Shown here in pieces: positions 4,595 through 47,899 of a stretch of DNA of 53,261 nucleotides. The stretch is from a virus. Within the stretch, counting starts at the first letter, position 1. Every line of letters begins with the position of its first letter. Location: positions 1 to 53,261 of the IMG/VR virus record IMGVR_UViG_3300047457_000194, one strand, 5' to 3'. Below the pieces are notes generated by a model. It searched no databases and had not been told where the DNA came from. It saw only the letters and a program-made list of their open reading frames with translations. The translations under genes and the position numbers were made by a program.

Positions 4595-4930
4595 ATGAAC
4601 GCACTTCCAACTCCGATTGGATACAAGATCCTTGTGAAAATGCACAAGGTCGTCGAAGAAAAGACGAAAAGTGGGCTGTATCTGCCCGATCAGACGAAGC
4701 AGGACGAGAATACGGCGTCCCTGATCGCCCAGGTACTTGAAATCGGGCCTGATGCCTACCGAGATCAGGTCAGATTCCCCAGTGGGCCGTGGTGTTCTAA
4801 GGGTGACTACATCATTCTCCGTAGTTACTCCGGTACTCGCATCAAGATCGAGGGCGAAGAGTATCGTCTCATCAATGACGACACGCCGGAAGCGGTTGTC
4901 CCCGATCCGCAGAAGATTGAGAGGGTCTAA
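4595..4930 (+). CDS. GroES-like co-chaperonin
   Basis: A 111-residue Cpn10-fold protein, likely the lid of a GroEL chamber used to fold capsid protein, as gp31 does in T4. The N-terminal strand IGYKILVKMHKVVEE aligns with the GroES strand that precedes the mobile loop. Residues 21-40 form a loop with the GroEL-binding hydrophobic tripeptide (LYL, 28-30, matching IVL of E. coli GroES). A KGDYIILRSYSGTRIKIEGEEY segment matches the conserved KVGD..(18)..G....IDGEEY end of the family. It sits between portal and scaffold genes, which fits a head-folding role. No GroEL gene is present, so it would use the host chamber. Confidence 0.85.
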   Translation: MNALPTPIGYKILVKMHKVVEEKTKSGLYLPDQTKQDENTASLIAQVLEIGPDAYRDQVRFPSGPWCSKGDYIILRSYSGTRIKIEGEEYRLINDDTPEAVVPDPQKIERV

Positions 4931-9286: not shown

Positions 9287-9307
9287 ACCTACCAGGAAGG
9301 TATTTTC

Positions 9308-10687
9308 ATGCGGTCTATCCGTACTGTTGTCTCTGCCCTCATCGTCTTGGGGGCCTCGCTGTTCTCGCAACAGAGCAGCAATATCTTTCAGGCTATCCCC
9401 AATACGGCGGATACCTCGACGGGTGAAGTCCGGTTCCTTGAGAAGCGGTCCAACGGGACCAACTACTTCAGCTTCAAGGCTCCCACCTCTATGAGTGGGA
9501 ATATCCTCGTCACTCCCTTCCTCTCCCTCCCGGCCTCGACCGAGTGCGTGACTCTGTCTGCGTCTGGTCAATTGTCTACTTCCGGGTGTGGGTTGACCTA
9601 CACGCCCACAAGAACGAGCGATACGGTGCTAACGCTTCCGGCAATTGCGGCAGATCAACTGGGCGTAGCTTCATACAACTGCGGGGCCATTTCTGCGGGG
9701 GCAACATTCACCGTTTCCTCGGGAACCGGAACTCTGTGGATCGCCCTTGCGAATGACTGCACGGTTGTCGTTCGCCACAACGTGACGGGAACTTGCTCTG
9801 CTGGATGCACCGCTGTATCCGGCGCTTCTGGGTTCGATCCGGCTGATCTGCCCTTGCATCAGTGGACTGTTACGACAGCCGTTCTGGCCGCAAATGGAAC
9901 GGCAAAACTGACTGCGTATCGGTCGCAGGGAATCGCGGCTGGGTCTGGGGTTTCGTTCTCTACGTCATCCGGGGTAACAACGATCTCGGCCTCTCCAGCG
10001 TTCAATCCTATCGACACCACGGCCTCGTATCTCCGCGATGAGTTCCCTCCCGGCACTTCATACGACGGAACGACGAGTATCGTTGGGCAACTGCGCTGGG
10101 TGCGGTCCACGAACCCGACAGTTGCGCCGAATGTCACGAATCTCGATGCGAACCACCCCGGCATCATACGGGTGACGAACCAAGCTGCCAGTGCTTCGTC
10201 GATTGACTTGGCGCAAGGACAGGCGTTTTCATCGAGCCTGTCTGCTTATAGCGGATGGGAGGCGCGGTATATTTTCCGTCCCAATTCCGCTACCGTAGTG
10301 CATCGAATTGGGTTCTGGAACGCCTTCGCCACGAATCCAACGGATTACGTTGGGCTTTACTACGACAGCGCGTCTCACACTAATTGGCAAGCAGTGATGC
10401 GAGCTGCAAGCGGATCAACGCTAACGTCCGATACGGGCGTGGCTTATTCCACCTCCAACTGGTTCACTCTCCGTATCCGGTCTGAGGTTACCGGTACGAT
10501 TCGTATATCCATCGCCACAAACGGTGGCGCGTTCTCGACGGAGAAGACGGTTTGTGCGAGTGGGTGCGACATCAGCGGGACGATGCCAACGACCAACATG
10601 TCGCCGTTTTTCTATATCTACACAGCAGCCGGTACCGCCAACATGGACATCGACTTCTTTGGTTGGAAGAGTACGGTGACCCGATGA
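9308..10687 (+). CDS. Fibre-like protein with N-terminal signal peptide
   Basis: A 459-residue protein that begins with a basic n-region and hydrophobic core (MRSIRTVVSALIVLGASLFS) like a Sec signal peptide, unusual for a virion fibre. The next part (NYFSFKAPTSMSGNILVTPFLSLP) is the 'F.AP......T.TLP' repeat of phage tail fibres. From about residue 255 the sequence resembles a concanavalin/LamG-like jelly roll (GWEARYIFRPNS, WFTLRIRSEVTGTIRISI, IDFFGWKST). Several Cys pairs suit an extracytoplasmic protein. Likely a cell-surface or receptor-binding protein; whether it is exported or in the virion is open. Confidence 0.65.
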   Translation: MRSIRTVVSALIVLGASLFSQQSSNIFQAIPNTADTSTGEVRFLEKRSNGTNYFSFKAPTSMSGNILVTPFLSLPASTECVTLSASGQLSTSGCGLTYTPTRTSDTVLTLPAIAADQLGVASYNCGAISAGATFTVSSGTGTLWIALANDCTVVVRHNVTGTCSAGCTAVSGASGFDPADLPLHQWTVTTAVLAANGTAKLTAYRSQGIAAGSGVSFSTSSGVTTISASPAFNPIDTTASYLRDEFPPGTSYDGTTSIVGQLRWVRSTNPTVAPNVTNLDANHPGIIRVTNQAASASSIDLAQGQAFSSSLSAYSGWEARYIFRPNSATVVHRIGFWNAFATNPTDYVGLYYDSASHTNWQAVMRAASGSTLTSDTGVAYSTSNWFTLRIRSEVTGTIRISIATNGGAFSTEKTVCASGCDISGTMPTTNMSPFFYIYTAAGTANMDIDFFGWKSTVTR

Positions 10688-13041
10688 AAGTCCTGATCCT
10701 TTCCCTTATCTCCATTCTTCCGGTGGCGGCGCAAATCACCGCATCACCTTCTTCTGTAAAGGTCACCATGCGGCGCATGGGTGCCTTCCCGATGCAGGCT
10801 TCGAGGCCTCCTGCGCCTGTCCAAATCACGATCTCAGGCACCGGATCGTGGAACATGTCGCGCAGCGGATCGCTTTCTACGGCATGTGGCGCGGCCTACG
10901 GATACTGCTTTAACGCCGTCAACTCGGTAGGGACACTGTGCAACGGGGCGCTTCCGACCGGATCTGGTGCTGGAACAACATGGCTCTGCTTTAACGGCCT
11001 GGTAACGAGCAACCTAGCTGTCGGCACTCACACTGGCACGCTCACTATTGGATCGACCAATATAGCGATCACACTTGTTGTCGAGGAGCAAAACGCCTAT
11101 AACGCATGGGGTGGGTTGTTGGGTTACCCTGTCGGATGCTCCAACTCAAACGCCTCCCAGTACGATACGGTTGATACCTGCACGATCACTGACGAGAGGC
11201 CGACTTCAACGGCATTCTCTATTCCGGCGCAGGGAGGGAGCTATGTCGATCCTCAGTTTGGAAGCACCGTAACGCGCATTACTGCCTCAGGACAGAATAT
11301 TCAATACGGAGCCCTATCGGCGTTCAGTGCCACTGGAAAGTATATTATGACCAGTGATCTATCTGGGAACGTCGATATCTACAACCGTGCGACGGCCACA
11401 GAGGCGTATGCAAATGTTCCTTCTGTGAACATAAACTTCGCTGCGTGGGATCCGTATGATGATGAAAAGCTGTGGTTTATGGATGGGGCGTCGATCAAAT
11501 ATCGAGTCCTAAGCACCAGCACGACAACCACTGCCGCGACGTATGCCTACAACCTGACCATGGGCGGGACGGTGGACATCACTGATGACGGATGGTGGGC
11601 GTTTCGCAACTCTGCAACGAACGCTGGCGATATTTGCGCGGTAAATCTTAACGGCCTGACTACGGGCAACCAGTCGTCGAAGACATTTTGCGCGTCCATG
11701 TCCAGCTTGAGCTTGACGGATATTGATTTCACGCAAATCACTCAAGTGGACAGCGAATCCAATAAGCGATATGTAATTGCCGTTGCTGCCCCGAGCGCGC
11801 AGGTTTGGAGCGTTGGGAGTAGTGGGCTCGTGTACGAGTACCCAATTCCGAGCGGTAACGGAGGAGACGTGACCGTAGAGCCGCACAGCGATGTGGGTCA
11901 GGATGAGATGGGTAGGCAGGTTTTTTGGTGGAACTGGTACGATCCGTACGGAAATCGCTACTACCTTGGCGCGATTCAGTTGAACAAGGGCGCTGAGATG
12001 ACGCGACCCGTAGAGGCTGGCGGTGGGTTGAGGATCTTGGCACTTGACAATCCCGCCGACTTCACTACTGATGCTCATTTTGGATGCACTTGGCGAGGCG
12101 TCTGCACCTACACTCCATACGGAAACTCAGGCGGGATCACGGCAAAACAAATTCAGTCCATCACTGCCGCCAATCCTTGCCAGATAAACTCAACGAGCCA
12201 CGGCTACTCGTCGTCAGATTCTGTCCAGATCGGTGGAGCGGCTGGAACAGGTGTGTCCGCGATGAACGCGATTCACACTGTCACTGTGGTCAGCGCCAAT
12301 GCCTACACCATTCCAGTGGATTGTTCATCCGGGTGGACGTATACTGCCAACTCCGCTCACTCGGCCTTGTCGGCTGCATCAGCCAGCAAACCGTTCCGCC
12401 AAGAGATAATGATCTCCAGGGTTGGGCAGTGGGTTCGTCGGCTTGCGATTCATCGTTCGAAGATTTACAGTGGCGGATCTCTCGTTGGATACTATGCCAC
12501 CCCACGAGCCTCGGTCTCTCGGGATGGAGCGTATATGGCCTACGCCTCGAACATGGGCGTCCCTGAGCAGGCCAGTGTGTATGTGGTTGCAACTGGTATA
12601 ACTACGGCTCAACGGCTGGCTGTCTCGACCACTCCAGCTGACACCAGCGTAGTTTTTAACTACACAATGCCTTCCAGCAACCAATTATCGGCAACAATAG
12701 TTATCTCCACAAGTCCGATGCTTGCCACTCCTGTTGTCAATGCCTCAGATGGACTGACGACGGTATCCAGGCAGTACGTTGCCTCTGGCCTTTCGGCTGA
12801 TACGGTTTACTATTTCCGAATTTCAACTACCGGGTACTCTAATACGGGATCGTTTCGCACTGCTCCGACGTTGACCGGGACTTCGATTCTCAGTTTAGTT
12901 CTCGGTGGAGGTGGGTCTATTCAGTACGGACCCACATCAGCACTCGGCAATTCCGGCGCAAGTCCGCTGACGTTGACCGTAAGCAAGGGCTTGTACTACT
13001 ACAATAACGGTGGTGGAGTGCAGGCGATTGTAGTTCGCTAA
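10684..13041 (+). CDS. Large exported-looking Ig/propeller protein
   Basis: A 785-residue protein whose ATG overlaps the previous stop (ATGA). It has a clear signal peptide (MKVLILSLISILPVAAQ), a BACON/Ig-like domain (about 20-115, ITASPSSVKVT), a region of propeller-like strands (about 150-430, FSATGKYIMTSD, DITDDGWWAFRN), an insert like the FCCH-type module of phage fibres (about 490-560, ANPCQINSTSHGYSSSDSVQI), a fibronectin III-like domain (about 640-740) and a glycine-rich end. The Ig plus propeller layout is like host secreted proteins, while the insert is phage-like. Possible roles are adhesion, surface masking or superinfection control; none is proven. Confidence 0.6.
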   Translation: MKVLILSLISILPVAAQITASPSSVKVTMRRMGAFPMQASRPPAPVQITISGTGSWNMSRSGSLSTACGAAYGYCFNAVNSVGTLCNGALPTGSGAGTTWLCFNGLVTSNLAVGTHTGTLTIGSTNIAITLVVEEQNAYNAWGGLLGYPVGCSNSNASQYDTVDTCTITDERPTSTAFSIPAQGGSYVDPQFGSTVTRITASGQNIQYGALSAFSATGKYIMTSDLSGNVDIYNRATATEAYANVPSVNINFAAWDPYDDEKLWFMDGASIKYRVLSTSTTTTAATYAYNLTMGGTVDITDDGWWAFRNSATNAGDICAVNLNGLTTGNQSSKTFCASMSSLSLTDIDFTQITQVDSESNKRYVIAVAAPSAQVWSVGSSGLVYEYPIPSGNGGDVTVEPHSDVGQDEMGRQVFWWNWYDPYGNRYYLGAIQLNKGAEMTRPVEAGGGLRILALDNPADFTTDAHFGCTWRGVCTYTPYGNSGGITAKQIQSITAANPCQINSTSHGYSSSDSVQIGGAAGTGVSAMNAIHTVTVVSANAYTIPVDCSSGWTYTANSAHSALSAASASKPFRQEIMISRVGQWVRRLAIHRSKIYSGGSLVGYYATPRASVSRDGAYMAYASNMGVPEQASVYVVATGITTAQRLAVSTTPADTSVVFNYTMPSSNQLSATIVISTSPMLATPVVNASDGLTTVSRQYVASGLSADTVYYFRISTTGYSNTGSFRTAPTLTGTSILSLVLGGGGSIQYGPTSALGNSGASPLTLTVSKGLYYYNNGGGVQAIVVR

Positions 13042-13326: not shown

Positions 13327-14019
13327 ATGAAGCCTCTGGAGACAATTGGCGCAATACCTGTAGTATGCTCCCCGCATACATACACGGAGTATAGTGGATT
13401 CACTTACAATGCTTCTACGCAGACACTGTCTGTCGTCAATGTCTCTTCTACTGCTGTCTCGTTTACCTCATTTGCTGGCGCTAATCACGATCACCAGTCC
13501 GTGAATGGCGGCGGTGTTTTGAATGCTGCGGCAATCGGATCTGGCACGATTGCTACGGCAAGACTTGGGAGCGGGTCCGCAAGTGCTGCTACATTCCTTC
13601 GCGGGGATCAGACGTGGGCCACGCCTCCGGGTGGATCTTCCGCGAATGTTGGAACGACTACTGTGAATTTCGGATCGTTCCCTGGGTGTTCGGATACTTC
13701 CGTTTCTGTTACTGGTCAGGCTGGGATTCTCGCTGGCTCAGTGGTCAACGCATGGATCTACCCGTCCAGCACAGCAGATCACACGGCAGATGAGCATATC
13801 GTGGAGACGATTCAGGTCTACGCTGGGAATATTGTTGCCGGGGTTGGGTTCACAATCTACGCCAGGAATACTTCCCAGCTAAACGAACCGCTTTCTTCCG
13901 GGGGTGTCACGGGGTTTCGCCCAGCGGCTGGTACTGTGTATGGAGAGCCGAACGCCTCGGTTGGCGGGAAAGGCACCAGGATCTACGGGTCCTGGAGCGT
14001 TGCTTGGCAATGGTCGTAG
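13327..14019 (+). CDS. Tail fibre protein
   Basis: A 230-residue protein with the hallmark fibre sequence HDHQSVNGGGVLNAAAIGSG (residues 55-75), then GSASAATFLRGDQTWATPP, a combination found where fibre shafts join head-binding domains. The C-terminal 130 residues form a beta-rich tip domain ending GSWSVAWQWS. Probably a short trimeric fibre or side spike that contacts the host surface. Confidence 0.7.
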   Translation: MKPLETIGAIPVVCSPHTYTEYSGFTYNASTQTLSVVNVSSTAVSFTSFAGANHDHQSVNGGGVLNAAAIGSGTIATARLGSGSASAATFLRGDQTWATPPGGSSANVGTTTVNFGSFPGCSDTSVSVTGQAGILAGSVVNAWIYPSSTADHTADEHIVETIQVYAGNIVAGVGFTIYARNTSQLNEPLSSGGVTGFRPAAGTVYGEPNASVGGKGTRIYGSWSVAWQWS

Positions 14020-16739: not shown

Positions 16740-18014
16740 ATGCCGAAGTTCAAGAAGGTTATCAGAAGGCAGACGGGCGGCAGGACGCCAGAGCAAGTTC
16801 CGGCATGGCTTCGTTCGATTTTTGAACCTGGGATTGCAGGAACAGCCGCGTTCAATAAGGCCGTCGAGGGATTGAAGCAAAGCTGGAATCAGTCTGGGAA
16901 TCTCAAGTCCGACTACGGATCTGGTTATTCTGTCCCGGCTCAATCGCCGCAGATTACGGCTGGAGTTGCTCCTGTCGATACCCGCCCTTCTTCTCAGATT
17001 GCCCCCTCTGCGTTGCCCAAGGTTGGGGCTCCTCTGGGTCGGACCCGTGTGCGTAGCGCCCCAATGCCAGCCAAAAGAGCTTCCGTTCCTGTGTATTTGG
17101 ATCGGGATATGGGTGCGATTTCCGGTATGCTTCAGTCTCAACCAGAGTTGATGAAGGCTGCTGCTCTCGGAGTCCCTGGTCTTCCAGCGGCTGAGGTCGA
17201 GGGGGAGGGGGCCGAGCTTGCCTCCATGATGGCCGCTTCCGGCAAAGGTAGCCCCATCGCTGAAGGCTCTATCCCTAAGACCAAAGCTGGCATGAAGAAG
17301 TTCATGCAGGAGTACGGCAAGTTTATTGCTCTCGGTGCTATGGCTGGCGCTGGCGGCAAGGGTGGACAGATCGCTGCTCCGATTATGGCGGCGCTCCCTG
17401 GTCTCATTGAGATGATGAAGGGGCGCGGAAAGGACAAAGTGAACAAGAAAGCCGATGGCGGGAAGCTGTTTGATGCGCTTGAATCCGCTTATGCAGAGTT
17501 CGACAAGGACAAGTACTCGAAGGGCAAGCTCAAGACTGGGGCAAAGCGTGACGAGGAGATGCGCTCTGTAGCCAAAGAGCGCATGGAGAGGTTCTCCCCT
17601 AAATCTCCATCTACTATGGTTCAATACAACCCCCAGCAGGGGTCTTGGTATACGCCGAGTGGGTTCCGTGAGTTTGAGGATTACGGAGAGCGAAAGAGGA
17701 AGTCTGACGAATCTGAAAAGAAGAGTGGCTCCTCGAAGAAAAGCGAAGGCGGCGCTATCCGCAAATTCAAAGGAGGTTCCATGAATACGAAAGACAGCAT
17801 GTTCACCCCGAAGTACAAGAAGGGTGGCGATATGCCCAAGGGCAAGGCTGCGGGTGAAATGCCCCAGCACAAGAAGATGGCGATGGGCAAATCCACTCCG
17901 CAAAGCACGGGTCAGAAGTTCGCCAAGGGCGGCACTGCGAAGTACGCTGGCGGCGGGATGTGCAAAGGCTACGGCATCTCGAAGAAAATTCGCCCGACCG
18001 GGCCGATGAACTAG
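16740..18014 (+). CDS. Internal virion protein with glycine motifs
   Basis: A 424-residue protein with a Lys-rich N-terminus, a helical middle with an apolar Ala/Gly stretch (about 195-225, FIALGAMAGAGGKGG) and a long Lys/Gly C-terminus with repeated GG motifs (KKADGGKL, EGGAIRKFKGGSM, YKKGGDMPKG, AKGGTAKYAGGG). The same GG motifs occur in three later internal proteins. An AAAGGAGG ribosome-binding site within the gene precedes an in-frame ATG at 17781. Likely a packaged internal protein. Confidence 0.6.
   Translation: MPKFKKVIRRQTGGRTPEQVPAWLRSIFEPGIAGTAAFNKAVEGLKQSWNQSGNLKSDYGSGYSVPAQSPQITAGVAPVDTRPSSQIAPSALPKVGAPLGRTRVRSAPMPAKRASVPVYLDRDMGAISGMLQSQPELMKAAALGVPGLPAAEVEGEGAELASMMAASGKGSPIAEGSIPKTKAGMKKFMQEYGKFIALGAMAGAGGKGGQIAAPIMAALPGLIEMMKGRGKDKVNKKADGGKLFDALESAYAEFDKDKYSKGKLKTGAKRDEEMRSVAKERMERFSPKSPSTMVQYNPQQGSWYTPSGFREFEDYGERKRKSDESEKKSGSSKKSEGGAIRKFKGGSMNTKDSMFTPKYKKGGDMPKGKAAGEMPQHKKMAMGKSTPQSTGQKFAKGGTAKYAGGGMCKGYGISKKIRPTGPMN
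17781..18014 (+). CDS. Possible internal-start product of the preceding gene
   Basis: A perfect AAAGGAGG lies 5 bp before an in-frame ATG, which would give a separate 77-residue Lys/Gly-rich C-terminal protein (MNTKDSMFTPKYKKGGDMPK...). It would be very basic (DNA-binding-like). The site could instead arise by chance from the coding sequence for FKGGSM. Confidence 0.35.
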   Translation: MNTKDSMFTPKYKKGGDMPKGKAAGEMPQHKKMAMGKSTPQSTGQKFAKGGTAKYAGGGMCKGYGISKKIRPTGPMN

Positions 18015-18036
18015 TTCTCTGAGCTAGTCTATAAAC

Positions 18037-18696
18037 ATGACCTACGCTGAACTCGTACAGCAAATTAAGGACTACATCCAATCCGAGGAGACGACCTTTG
18101 TCTCCAATCTGGACGGGATCATCCAGCTCGCCGAGCAGCGTATCAACAGGGATGCGAAGTCTCCTGACTCCAGGTCATCTACTACTGGAACGTTCTCAAC
18201 TCAGACAATAACCACACCAAGTGATTTCGTTATCCCTCTGAGTCTGTTCGTCAGTGTGGGTGGCCTGGAGGTTGGTCTTCTACTGAAGGAGCCCTCGTAT
18301 CTCACAGAGGCTTACGGTGTGTCTGCGTCCTCTGCTGGTTCTACTGGTGATCCTGCATACTACGCCATACAGACTTCGTCTACTGGCGGGACTAGCATCA
18401 TCGTAGCGCCATCACCAAGCTCCCTGCTCAACTACACCCTGTACTACTACTCCGCGCCGGATACGATCACTTCCGGCGGAAGCAGTGCTACCACCTGGGT
18501 CAGCACCTACTTCCCTCAAACTCTTTTGTACGGGTGTCTTTCTGAGGCGTACACCTTCCTGAAGGGTGATCCGCAAATGCAGCAGCAGTACGAGAAGCTG
18601 TATCAGCTTGGGTTGATGGAACTCAAGAACGTCTGCGAGGACGAGCAGCGCATGGACAACTACAGAAACCCCGACAGCAAAAGGAACATTGGTTAA
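18037..18696 (+). CDS. SU10-like adaptor protein
   Basis: A 219-residue protein starting MTYAELVQQIKDYIQSEE and continuing DGIIQLAEQRINRD, the conserved opening of phage adaptor proteins of the SU10 type that sit between portal and tail. A beta-rich middle and a helical end (LYGCLSEAYTFLKGD, QQQYEKLYQLGLMELKN) complete the family layout. It probably forms a ring with the connector encoded at 15730. Confidence 0.8.
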   Translation: MTYAELVQQIKDYIQSEETTFVSNLDGIIQLAEQRINRDAKSPDSRSSTTGTFSTQTITTPSDFVIPLSLFVSVGGLEVGLLLKEPSYLTEAYGVSASSAGSTGDPAYYAIQTSSTGGTSIIVAPSPSSLLNYTLYYYSAPDTITSGGSSATTWVSTYFPQTLLYGCLSEAYTFLKGDPQMQQQYEKLYQLGLMELKNVCEDEQRMDNYRNPDSKRNIG

Positions 18697-18699
18697 CAC

Positions 18700-19131
18700 A
18701 TGGCGTTCACTGGTAGCTATGTAACGGATTCATTCAAGCAGCAGTTGTTTCTTGCTGTCCATGACTTCTCTGTGGACGTGATCAAGATCGCTCTCTACAC
18801 GAGTTCTGCGACAATCGACAACACCACTACCGCGTATAGCGTCACCAATGAAGTCTCTGGCGCTGGCTATAGTGCTGGCGGAAACACACTGACATGCACT
18901 CTGACCTCAAGCGGCGGCTATGCGATTCTGGACTTCGCTGACGTGAACTGGACCACAGCCAGCTTCACCTGTCGCGGCGCTTTGATCTACAATTCGTCGA
19001 AGGCAGACAAGTCGATCTTCGTTCTGGACTTCGGCACGGATAAAACGGTATCCGGCGGTACGTTCTCTGTGCAGTTTCCTGCCGCAGATGTGAACAACGC
19101 AATCGCCGTCATTAGCTCGGTGACCAACTGA
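18700..19131 (+). CDS. Conserved beta-rich tail protein
   Basis: A 143-residue protein with the widespread phage pattern DVIKIALYTSSATIDNTTTAYS, EVSGAGYSAGGNTLT, AILDFADVNWTTASFTCRGA and a closing strand with FVLDFGTDKTVSGGTF. It is found in many tailed phages next to fibre genes and lacks a defined biochemical role. It shares the last base with the next start (TGATG). Confidence 0.7.
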   Translation: MAFTGSYVTDSFKQQLFLAVHDFSVDVIKIALYTSSATIDNTTTAYSVTNEVSGAGYSAGGNTLTCTLTSSGGYAILDFADVNWTTASFTCRGALIYNSSKADKSIFVLDFGTDKTVSGGTFSVQFPAADVNNAIAVISSVTN

Positions 19132-20312
19132 TGCCCCCTACATACACTTCAAACAACAGAATCAAGAAGATCGCCAACGGTGATGAGACTGGAACGTGGG
19201 GAACCAGTACGAACACCAACTTCGATCTCTACGACACTGCAATCGATGGCGTTGTGGATATCACCCTCAGCGGGACCTCCAGCACCCTGACGATCTCTGA
19301 CGGCGCGGCGGCAAGCCCTGACGGTCGCAACAAGGTGCTTGTCCTTGGCGGGTCTCCGTCTGGCACGCATACGATCACGGTCAGCCCAAACTCGGTCGAG
19401 AAGCACTACTACATCCAGAACAATACCTCGCAGAGCGTTGTCATTGCTCAGGGTTCTGGGACCACGGTCACCATTGCGGCTGGGTATTCGGCGATTGTGT
19501 ACTGTGATGGCGCTGGCTCCGGTGCCTCCGTCAAGGAGATCATCACCAAGTTCAAGGCTACTGAGTTTAACGCCAGCACATACACTGCTGCTGCGTCTCT
19601 CGCGGTAAAGCCTGGGTCGAATTCAACGAACGCCATTGCCTTCCAGACCTTTGGTGGAACCCAGGTTGCCGCACTCGACACCACGAATAGCAGGTTCTGT
19701 GTGGGGACGGTTGCGCCGACAGCGAAGCTCACCATCTCTGAGAACGCCTCTTCCGTGACTCCCCCGTCTGGAACTCTGTTCCATGCGGTTGGCGCTAACG
19801 CTGCTGGTGGTGTAAGGTTCTCTATCGACGGGATTCAGAACGGGCCGATATATACCGGCAGAATCTGCTTTGGAACCGCTGCCTCCCCCAGTGCCGTTCT
19901 AAGTTCCTCTTACCTTGCGGCGCTTGCTGGGCGTGGATACCTGACTACTGGATACTCCAACGACCTGGGGCAGGTTGCTTTTCAGGCGGAAGAGAGCTTC
20001 ACTGACTCAACCGCCGCGACTGGGATCGTCTTCGTCACTACGGCACCCGGATCGGTCACCAATAATCAGGTTGCTCGAATCAACGGCAGAGGCCAGTTCG
20101 TCATCGGCGTTCAGGCGGCTGGCGGTTTGGTGAACGTACCTACGAACAACAGCGTTGGCATTGAGCTTCAAAGCACTACGAGGGCGGTCCTTCTTTCCAG
20201 GATGACCACGGCTCAACGTGATGCCATGACGGCGGTTGACGGCATGATTATCTACAACACGACAACCGGAACGATCCAGGGATATCAGAGCGGCGCGTGG
20301 GGTAACCTGTAA
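19131..20312 (+). CDS. Tail fibre / receptor-binding protein
   Basis: A 393-residue fibre protein. It opens MPPTYTSNNRIKKIANGDETGTWG, the N-terminal attachment sequence used by many podovirus fibres, continues through strand-rich shaft sequence (ISDGAAASPDGRNKVLVLGG, HTITVSPNSVEKHYYIQNNTS) and ends with TTAQRDAMTAVDGMIIYNTT and GYQSGAW, the classic phage fibre C-terminal motif. Likely the main receptor-binding fibre. Confidence 0.8.
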   Translation: MPPTYTSNNRIKKIANGDETGTWGTSTNTNFDLYDTAIDGVVDITLSGTSSTLTISDGAAASPDGRNKVLVLGGSPSGTHTITVSPNSVEKHYYIQNNTSQSVVIAQGSGTTVTIAAGYSAIVYCDGAGSGASVKEIITKFKATEFNASTYTAAASLAVKPGSNSTNAIAFQTFGGTQVAALDTTNSRFCVGTVAPTAKLTISENASSVTPPSGTLFHAVGANAAGGVRFSIDGIQNGPIYTGRICFGTAASPSAVLSSSYLAALAGRGYLTTGYSNDLGQVAFQAEESFTDSTAATGIVFVTTAPGSVTNNQVARINGRGQFVIGVQAAGGLVNVPTNNSVGIELQSTTRAVLLSRMTTAQRDAMTAVDGMIIYNTTTGTIQGYQSGAWGNL

Positions 20313-20647
20313 TGACAATATTCTCTTGGAACATTCGCCTTATGGAGGTTGTCCCGCAGGAGGGAAGCCTCAATGAAGTTGTGATCATCGTCTACTGGGA
20401 TCGCAACGCCTCCAGAATCAGTGGCGGGAAAACGTACACCGCTCACCGGACTGGAACCTCCAATCTTGGATCTCCTGACCCGTACAACTTCACGCCGTTC
20501 AACCAATTGACCCAGCAACAGGTCGTTGGGTGGATTGAAGCTTCGCTCGGTCAGGATCAAATCGACGCCATCGATCTCTCTCTCGAAGGCGAGATCGACA
20601 GCCAAATCACCCCCCCCACCGAGGTGCTGCCTCCCCCGTGGCAGTAA
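20312..20647 (+). CDS. Conserved small phage protein of the fibre region
   Basis: A 111-residue protein (TAATG overlap with the fibre stop). It has a beta strand pair (SWNIRLMEVVPQEGSLNEVV, IIVYWDRN) and a FTPFNQLTQQQVVGWIEASL helix, a combination widely seen after fibre genes in podoviruses and cyanophages. Function unknown; ends in a Pro-rich tail. Confidence 0.65.
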   Translation: MTIFSWNIRLMEVVPQEGSLNEVVIIVYWDRNASRISGGKTYTAHRTGTSNLGSPDPYNFTPFNQLTQQQVVGWIEASLGQDQIDAIDLSLEGEIDSQITPPTEVLPPPWQ

Positions 20648-44700: not shown

Positions 44701-45873
44701 TTAGACCGTCTTGATCTTTACGACAGTGCCGAACGGCACGTTGGTGTTGTTGTAGTCGCCGTACTGCATCCAGATGACAGGCACGCCGGGGTCAGGACCG
44801 AAGTCGTAGCAGGCCATGTCCGTCAGATAGACGAAGCACTTGGGCTTGATGTCTTTGTCCTGCGCGTACTGAAACACCGGGGAGAACCGGGTGCCACCGG
44901 ACTGGACCTTCTGCCCGTCGAGTTCCATCGGGCGACCGGGCTTGTACTGGTCGTGCTTGTACACGTCATAGTCGCAGTAGAGAACATGCGTCTCCTCGGG
45001 GCGAACCTTCGTAAGGAAGTGGTTGATCATCCCCAGGAAGTTCTCCAACACATCATGCGGCACAGAACCGGAGGTATCCATGCCGACGACCAGCTTGCCA
45101 ACGCCATCCCGCAGGACGGAAGGCAGGTACATGTCCTGGCCCATGAAGCGGCGCGAGGGCTTCTGCCATGTGTAGTCGCGGGGGTAGATGGGTTGCATGA
45201 ACTTGGCGAATAGGTGGCGGTAGTCCTCCTCGGGTTCACGCGCCTTGGCGAGGAGATCCTTGAGCGCACCGGGTAGCTTGCCGCAGAACTTGGCGTGGCT
45301 CTCAGCCTGCGCCACCTTGACCTGGATCTCTTCGGCCAGCGCCGCCTTCTCCTCCTTCGTCATGCCATCGGTCGGCAGGACATCGCCCTGCGAGAAGTCT
45401 TTGTCGCCGCCCGGTCCGTTGCCCTGACCACTGCCGGATCCGCCCTTGCGCTTCTGCTCAGGCAGCATGTCGTAGATCTGTTCCCACGACAAGCCCTTGT
45501 ACCTGGGATCGATCAGGCAGTCCTTTGGAAGCTGGTATCCACACTCATGGATCAACAGATTGATGGCGTAATCCATCGCGATGTTGGCCTGCATGCGGTT
45601 GCGGTCGCCCAGGCGCAGCGGGTGCATCAGCGCAACGTGCATGATCTCGTGGATGGAGACGGCCTTAACTTCTTCGGCGCTCATCTCAGCCACGAACTTA
45701 GGGTTGTAGTAGACGGCCTTGCCATCGGTCGCCATGGTGGGGCAGCGTTCGTCAGCCACCCAGTTCATGCGGAGGGCGAGAGAGCCGAAGAACGGCTCCT
45801 GCCCAATCGCCATGCGGACATTCTGCCGCACGATCTTCGATGCCGCTTCGGCTGTGATAGTCACGGTGTTCAT
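44701..45873 (-). CDS. Metallopeptidase-like plus VWA protein (DUF2201-like)
   Basis: A 390-residue protein. The N-terminal domain has HEIMH (75-79) followed by His84 and Arg87 (HVALMHPLR), the zincin-like pattern of DUF2201-type proteins. A Gly-rich linker (about 143-157) joins a helical middle to a C-terminal VWA domain with a complete MIDAS: DTSGS (266-270), Thr328 (SGGTRF) and Asp352 (YLTDM). Such proteins work with MoxR AAA+ ATPases to remodel protein targets. It is in an operon with one here. Confidence 0.85.
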   Translation of the reverse strand: MNTVTITAEAASKIVRQNVRMAIGQEPFFGSLALRMNWVADERCPTMATDGKAVYYNPKFVAEMSAEEVKAVSIHEIMHVALMHPLRLGDRNRMQANIAMDYAINLLIHECGYQLPKDCLIDPRYKGLSWEQIYDMLPEQKRKGGSGSGQGNGPGGDKDFSQGDVLPTDGMTKEEKAALAEEIQVKVAQAESHAKFCGKLPGALKDLLAKAREPEEDYRHLFAKFMQPIYPRDYTWQKPSRRFMGQDMYLPSVLRDGVGKLVVGMDTSGSVPHDVLENFLGMINHFLTKVRPEETHVLYCDYDVYKHDQYKPGRPMELDGQKVQSGGTRFSPVFQYAQDKDIKPKCFVYLTDMACYDFGPDPGVPVIWMQYGDYNNTNVPFGTVVKIKTV

Positions 45874-46870: not shown

Positions 46871-47899
46871 TTAGAACATCAGCTTCGCGTAGGTGGGCTT
46901 GCTGATCATGTCGAGGATGGGCTTCGACGTGACGGCGGCAGTGTCGCGCTTGCACACATCCTTGAGGAACAAGCAGCCGTACTCCGGGGCCAGCCGCTGC
47001 ATGTAGGCGGCGATGGGCTTACTGTTCTGCGGGTTCCAGTTCGACGACAGGTAGATCGCCGTAGCGAAGGACGCCGACAGGTCGGTCGGGACAGCCACGC
47101 CACCAGGATCGGCGCAGATCGCGGAGATCTGGGGCAGCGACTGCCACATCCGCAGGAAGCCAAGGAACTCCAAGCCAGTGCCTTGCCCAATGCAACCCTG
47201 GATCATCTCGCCAGCGATCTCTCGGTCGGGGTCCTGGTCAAGGATGCGGGAGAGGAACTCGACAGAGCGAGGGGTGCAGAACGCGAAGTCATTCTTGTGC
47301 GGCTGCTGCACAAGCAGGTCCTTGCGGTAGGCGAAGAACGCCCGGAGTTCGGGGCGGATGGACTTGGTGATCGGCTTCGCAGGGACGACCTGCGCCGTCA
47401 CATTGCTGTCGCCAGCGGACGCCCACTCCAACCACGAGTCGAACGCCGACTCCAACTGGATGTGGAGGAAGCGGTTCATGAGCGGGGCCGGGGGCTGGTT
47501 GTAGTTGCCGCCGTCCTGGGCGCGATTGCCCGTGGCGCAGATGTACGCGCCGTCAGGCATCCGGTAGTCGCCAAGCTGCCGCTCCAGGACCAGCTGATAG
47601 AGGGCGCACTGCACCGACATCGGGGCGTCAGGCAGTTCCTCGATAGCGACGAGGGTCGCGCCGTTCTTGGGTAGCCAGTTCGGCGTGGCGCGGTAGCAGA
47701 CGCCGTCCTTGATATAGGGGATGCCCATATCCACCGGGTCCATCATCGTCGGGCGCACGTCAACGTGTTCCCGCTTGAGGATCGAGGCGACCTTGCGAAT
47801 GATCGAGGACTTGCCAATCCCGGCCTGCCCCCACACCCAGACGGGTACCTCGGCATTGATCGCGACCTGAAGCGCCTTCATGAAGTTCTGTGCGTACAT
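46871..47899 (-). CDS. MoxR-family AAA+ ATPase
   Basis: A 342-residue ATPase. Walker A GQAGIGKS (24-31), Walker B LVAIEE (83-88), sensor 1 ICATGN (Asn125), and an arginine-finger-like PLMNRF (Arg143) are all seen. MoxR-type ATPases form hexamers that use VWA-protein adaptors to open or activate targets. A promoter (47945-47974) lies 45 bp upstream and AAGGAGACTACG precedes the ATG. It is the first gene of the operon. Confidence 0.9.
   Translation of the reverse strand: MYAQNFMKALQVAINAEVPVWVWGQAGIGKSSIIRKVASILKREHVDVRPTMMDPVDMGIPYIKDGVCYRATPNWLPKNGATLVAIEELPDAPMSVQCALYQLVLERQLGDYRMPDGAYICATGNRAQDGGNYNQPPAPLMNRFLHIQLESAFDSWLEWASAGDSNVTAQVVPAKPITKSIRPELRAFFAYRKDLLVQQPHKNDFAFCTPRSVEFLSRILDQDPDREIAGEMIQGCIGQGTGLEFLGFLRMWQSLPQISAICADPGGVAVPTDLSASFATAIYLSSNWNPQNSKPIAAYMQRLAPEYGCLFLKDVCKRDTAAVTSKPILDMISKPTYAKLMF

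Follow-up and report, generated by a model that had tools for sequence, protein, structure and literature searches.

Two adjacent genes of the phage recorded as IMGVR_UViG_3300047457_000194, here called ORF1 and ORF2, probably encode proteins that are exported and act outside the cytoplasm rather than serving as ordinary virion fibres. The whole stretch of DNA that was analysed (53,261 bases, hereafter the window) carries terminase, major capsid, SU10-type adaptor and fibre genes on its plus strand and a tyrosine integrase and an ERF recombinase on its minus strand; ORF1 and ORF2 lie inside the late operon, amid head, fibre and tail genes. Phage fibres are generally regarded as folding and assembling in the cytoplasm, acting only on virions and needing no export, so the signal peptides that both ORF1 and ORF2 carry, and that a tail fibre is expected to lack, are odd. 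We compared the pair mainly with two small contigs whose capsid region is almost the same as that of the window (L001 and L002), with a phage of the window's capsid group (L027; 74% capsid identity) and with a 22-kb prophage contig found in a search with the middle part of ORF2 (L111). As the original prediction had it, both genes are present as open reading frames on the plus strand, with the following features:

9294..9300, plus strand: good Shine-Dalgarno sequence AGGAAGG of ORF1, identical in L001.
9308..10687, plus strand: ORF1, 459 aa, predicted exported fibre-like protein with an ATG start; homologue at L111:3517-5172, 41% over the C-terminal 365 aa.
9308..9367, plus strand: ORF1 signal peptide MRSIRTVVSALIVLGASLFS, score 3.0, conserved in L001 and L002 except for one V/A change.
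9419..9577, plus strand: ORF1 residues 38-90, phage tail-fibre motif (GEVRF...NGTNYFSFKAPTSMSGN...LP...SGQLS), profile E 2e-6.
9557..9577, plus strand: mosaic junction at about codons 84-90, from codon comparison with L001 and L002, with a constant N-terminus upstream and a diverged body downstream.
9590..10684, plus strand: ORF1 residues 95-459, the part common to the L111 prophage protein, with all six window cysteines (125, 151, 163, 167, 416 and 420) conserved.
10684..10687, plus strand: ATGA overlap of the ORF1 stop and the ORF2 start (translational coupling), arranged in the same way at L111:5169 and L027:17831.
10684..13041, plus strand: ORF2, 785 aa, predicted exported multidomain protein, with 57% identity over its length to L111:5521-7839.
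10684..10731, plus strand: ORF2 signal peptide MKVLILSLISILPVAA, score 3.9; the homologue has MRTLLLFLATIPAFA, another sequence of the same character.
12622..12861, plus strand: ORF2 residues 647-726, FN3-like (PF16656) region, E 0.0025 here and 4.7e-6 in the homologue, below the curated cut-off.
13327..14019, plus strand: neighbouring fibre gene, 230 aa, without a signal peptide, its N-terminus common to a 746-aa tail fibre of L004.

Export is the best-supported step of our interpretation, and on the evidence of the sequences we regard it as very likely. In both N-termini a positively charged n-region precedes a hydrophobic core that has no charged residues, and a plausible site for signal peptidase I follows; cleavage of ORF1 would fall after MRSIRTVVSALIVLGASLFS and before QQ, a weaker site (L-F-S), and that of ORF2 after MKVLILSLISILPVAA and before Q, a classic site. 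When 655 distinct late genes of related phages (at least 150 aa each) were scored with the same home-made scorer, six obtained any positive score and two a comparable one (at least 2.8), one of these two being a signal-peptide gene of L027, which itself lies in the fibre region. Two adjacent signal-peptide genes are not expected by chance. The clear signal peptides that had been claimed for both proteins are thus borne out as Sec-type N-termini of a kind rare in related phages. A longer version of ORF2, starting at TTG 10552, was rejected as unlikely because the L111 homologue also starts at the ORF2 start used here and only about four further codons are open upstream.

The cysteines provide a second line of evidence. 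The mature exported proteins contain 1.2-2.7% cysteine. For 109 large genes from related phages the average is 0.43%, and the highest value among these belongs to the 912-aa protein of L027 itself. Ten of the 12 cysteines of ORF2 are common to its L111 homologue, and those that are not shared fall in pairs. Since the bacterial cytoplasm is reducing, and paired conservation and change are what disulfides produce, this pattern argues for export independently of the signal-peptide score. We rejected even-cysteine parity as a stand-alone proof after a background count: all seven exported proteins have even numbers of cysteines, which is weak by itself because 141 of 232 background proteins (61%) do as well. 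Judged from their conservation, the conserved cysteines of ORF1 and ORF2 are probably disulfide bonded. The export proposed in the original prediction is therefore supported both by signal character that is kept through sequence divergence and by cysteines that are either conserved or change pairwise.

Homologues of both proteins are encoded together in L111, the contig of an unrelated phage; they are the one set of distant homologues of the window pair that was found. This contig contains a long 5'-end gene (tape-measure-like by eye), a gene for a 1684-aa tail protein, an endolysin and a holin, and is siphovirus-like on these grounds. The holin is followed by three signal-peptide genes encoding, in order, proteins of 551 aa, 116 aa and 772 aa; the first is the ORF1 homologue, matching over its last 365 residues, the third is related to ORF2 across its length, and an ATGA overlap like that of the window links the 551-aa and 116-aa genes. 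The L111 signal peptides are unlike those of the window in sequence and the same in layout and character. The 551-aa protein differs from ORF1 at its front, where it has a collagen-like stretch; signal peptides are thus borne by two different N-terminal builds.

One further pair, analogous to that of the window, was found in L027:

17244-17834: L027 signal-peptide gene, 196 aa, with a signal peptide and a genuine tail-fibre domain (PHROG, 2.4e-14).
17831-20569, plus strand: L027 signal-peptide gene, 912 aa, with GLUG-like repeats, a Gly-rich C-terminus and 16 cysteines.

These tandem genes stand behind a fibre gene, and 4-nt overlaps are present in all three gene sets (window, L111 and L027). 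The fibre domain of the 196-aa protein has matches in 297 phage records; in the two relatives that were examined, from Microcystis and Roseobacter phages, the fibre gene concerned has no signal peptide and one cysteine. About 28 to 33 loci of the capsid group cover the fibre region, which makes the signal-peptide feature uncommon.

ORF1 has the build of a fibre. A profile made from the motif in locus L006 and seven phage matches, several of them annotated as tail fibres, recovered ORF1 when run on all frames of the window, and both a tblastn search with ORF1 (very weak, E 2) and the L006 motif query converged on a single gene of Synechococcus phage S-B05, one that is tail-fibre-like. Residues 1-84, including the signal peptide, are nearly identical in L001 and L002, the two close relatives on which this comparison rests, and divergence sets in after codon 84; fibre sequence modules are thus accompanied by the constant N-terminus and exchangeable C-terminal body typical of tail fibres. 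Going by these modules, ORF1 is a tail-fibre-type protein behind a predicted signal peptide.

ORF2 looks like a multidomain protein of host-derived appearance. Among 21 late genes, ORF2 departs furthest from the usual codon choice (z 7.2), while ORF1 is ordinary in this respect (z 2.7), which suggests that ORF2 was acquired. The earlier idea that a secreted host protein had been captured as a fibre proved too simple for ORF1, which has phage fibre modules behind its signal peptide. Of the Ig, propeller and FN3-like parts ascribed to ORF2, the FN3-like region was recovered, below cut-off as listed above; support for the propeller went no further than a weak match to WD40 (E 0.004), and no match to Ig was seen. 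Both AlphaFold models had low confidence values (pLDDT 34 for ORF2 alone and 32 for residues 136-640 modelled with the homologue), and we therefore claim no fold for this protein. No tail-fibre family matched ORF2, and searches with ORF1 and ORF2 against Pfam, PHROGs, NCBIfam, PDB and GenBank phages and plasmids returned no family-level match. Full-length relatives of ORF2 were absent from 240 Verrucomicrobiota and 150 Gemmatimonadota genomes, which gave just short partial matches. ORF2 residues 488-560 were considered as a phage-common insertion and dropped, as a regular expression run over the compared loci matched the homologue only.

The capsid protein of the window belongs to a large environmental group with at least 600 matches. 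Its 20 relatives on genome contigs (L091-L110) lie on MAG contigs that carry assignments to a wide range of unrelated phyla and to one archaeon. Mis-binning of phage contigs is the likeliest explanation, and host inference from the capsid was therefore dropped without a call. ORF1 and ORF2 are both missing from L004, the closest capsid relative, where different fibre genes occupy that slot, one of them the 746-aa protein already mentioned, a clear PHROG tail fibre. L004 also has an HNH-like endonuclease reading frame right after the capsid gene (L004:10867-11847, plus strand), which the window does not have at that place. Another member of the capsid group, L095, encodes a signal-peptide-bearing trypsin-like serine protease with TAAHC and GNSGG motifs (L095:14639-15388, plus strand) 3.7 kb after its capsid gene, another exported product in that region. 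Elsewhere in the window we noted a GroES-like 111-aa protein, recognised by eye, inside the head module (4595-4930, plus strand), and a DUF2201 metallopeptidase/VWA protein near a probable AAA ATPase (44701-45873 and 46871-47899, both minus strand), which resemble a MoxR-VWA pair.

A lead on the host comes from L111. About 1.3 kb beyond the homologues of the pair, L111 carries a gene with the TIGR03437 (Solibacter C-terminal) domain (L111:9151-10305, minus strand; 60 bits against a cut-off of 29), and this domain scored above cut-off in one of 145 Verrucomicrobiota, two of 150 Gemmatimonadota and none of 14 control genomes. The gene itself is apparently exported and may be host flank or phage cargo. 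The earlier hint at Acidobacteriota gains from this position, since the only distant homologue pair lies near a Solibacter-type gene; the Acidobacteriota-type neighbourhood was seen for the L111 homologues only. This neighbour supports an Acidobacteriota host for L111; by extension from L111, it would be no more than a lead for the window phage. ORF1 and ORF2 resemble Solibacter-type exported proteins in signal peptides that end in A before Q and in their multidomain, probably exported build; they differ from them in having no TIGR03437 match themselves.

We tentatively favour, at slightly less than even confidence, the interpretation that ORF1 and ORF2 form a transferable Sec-exported pair placed by the phage among its fibre genes, with receptor masking or surface exclusion as the likeliest use. 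The pair would be co-translated late, together with the virion genes. Sec would then move both proteins across the inner membrane, where signal peptidase would cut them, and disulfides formed in the periplasm would lock their folds. Sec alone delivers only as far as the periplasm, and no outer-membrane route or anchor was identified for ORF1 or ORF2; from there the two proteins might act on the envelope or outside the cell. Our guess, along the lines of the surface coating put forward in the original prediction, is that they would bind the host surface recognised by the adsorption proteins of the phage, so that a producing or lysed cell stops taking up phage, and as a guess this leads over attachment to virions after lysis and over lysogenic conversion.

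If instead the proteins were accessory adhesins of the virion, exported for disulfide folding, freed at lysis and then attached to finished particles, their place among head, fibre and tail genes, the fibre-type constant N-terminus and swapped body of ORF1 and the cysteine pattern would all be accommodated. The constant N-terminus of ORF1, however, includes the signal peptide, which would be cut off; in L111 another gene, with no signal peptide, is fibre-like and weakly matches a PHROG tail fibre, and no precedent was found in the open-licence literature. We thus consider such adhesins unlikely. To lysogenic conversion, in which adhesins made and exported by the lysogen alter its surface or its attachment to surfaces, we give the same low probability. 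The tyrosine integrase in the window speaks for it, as do the host-like parts of ORF2 and its foreign codon usage (the atypical composition expected of a moron) and the location of the L111 genes, which come after endolysin and holin and near the TIGR03437 gene, a usual place for conversion genes. Yet in the window the genes are embedded with tight overlaps in the head/fibre operon, suggesting late rather than lysogenic expression, and around the pair no promoter or terminator was better than chance in a scan that covered promoters of the sigma-70 type. This result lends no support to a moron with its own promoter; it fits a late operon, and late expression better than lysogenic expression. 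That ORF1 and ORF2 are ordinary non-exported fibres, their hydrophobic N-termini being relics of captured host genes or docking peptides, is quite improbable: phage fibres usually dock through the N-terminus and the cleavage site of ORF1 is less than ideal, but the signal character is kept while the sequence changes in three gene sets, the cysteines are abundant and paired, and the related fibres of other phages that lack a signal peptide contain few of them.

With Caudoviricetes tail fibres (PHROG families; fibres of cyanophages, pelagiphages and roseophages), the putative exported pair shares the ORF1 motif, the constant N-terminus with a variable body and the position in the fibre region, and in the L027 counterpart the PHROG tail-fibre domain is complete; in contrast to the relatives examined, which have neither, ORF1 and ORF2 have a Sec signal and conserved or paired cysteines. 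We found no report of tail fibres with signal peptides in the open-licence literature. The superinfection-exclusion proteins Llp of T5, Cor of HK022 and Lom of lambda are small lipoproteins or membrane proteins. Phage origin, export to the envelope and proposed receptor masking, the latter two being predictions for ORF1 and ORF2, are common to both groups, whereas ORF1 and ORF2 are large, fibre-built and encoded in tandem.

More generally, it is possible, if rather speculative, that some tailed phages make non-virion "exported fibres" with Sec signals and disulfides from tandem co-translated genes, that these occupy the phage's own receptor and that the module moves between podovirus-like and siphovirus-like phages. 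For a large phage group that has no assigned host, the TIGR03437 neighbour offers a lead. If the Sec signals work, phages would also send receptor-binding modules into the envelope, which may open a route to receptor masking, debris avoidance or a change of the lysogen surface, and the plain annotation "tail fibre" would name the wrong compartment for such genes.
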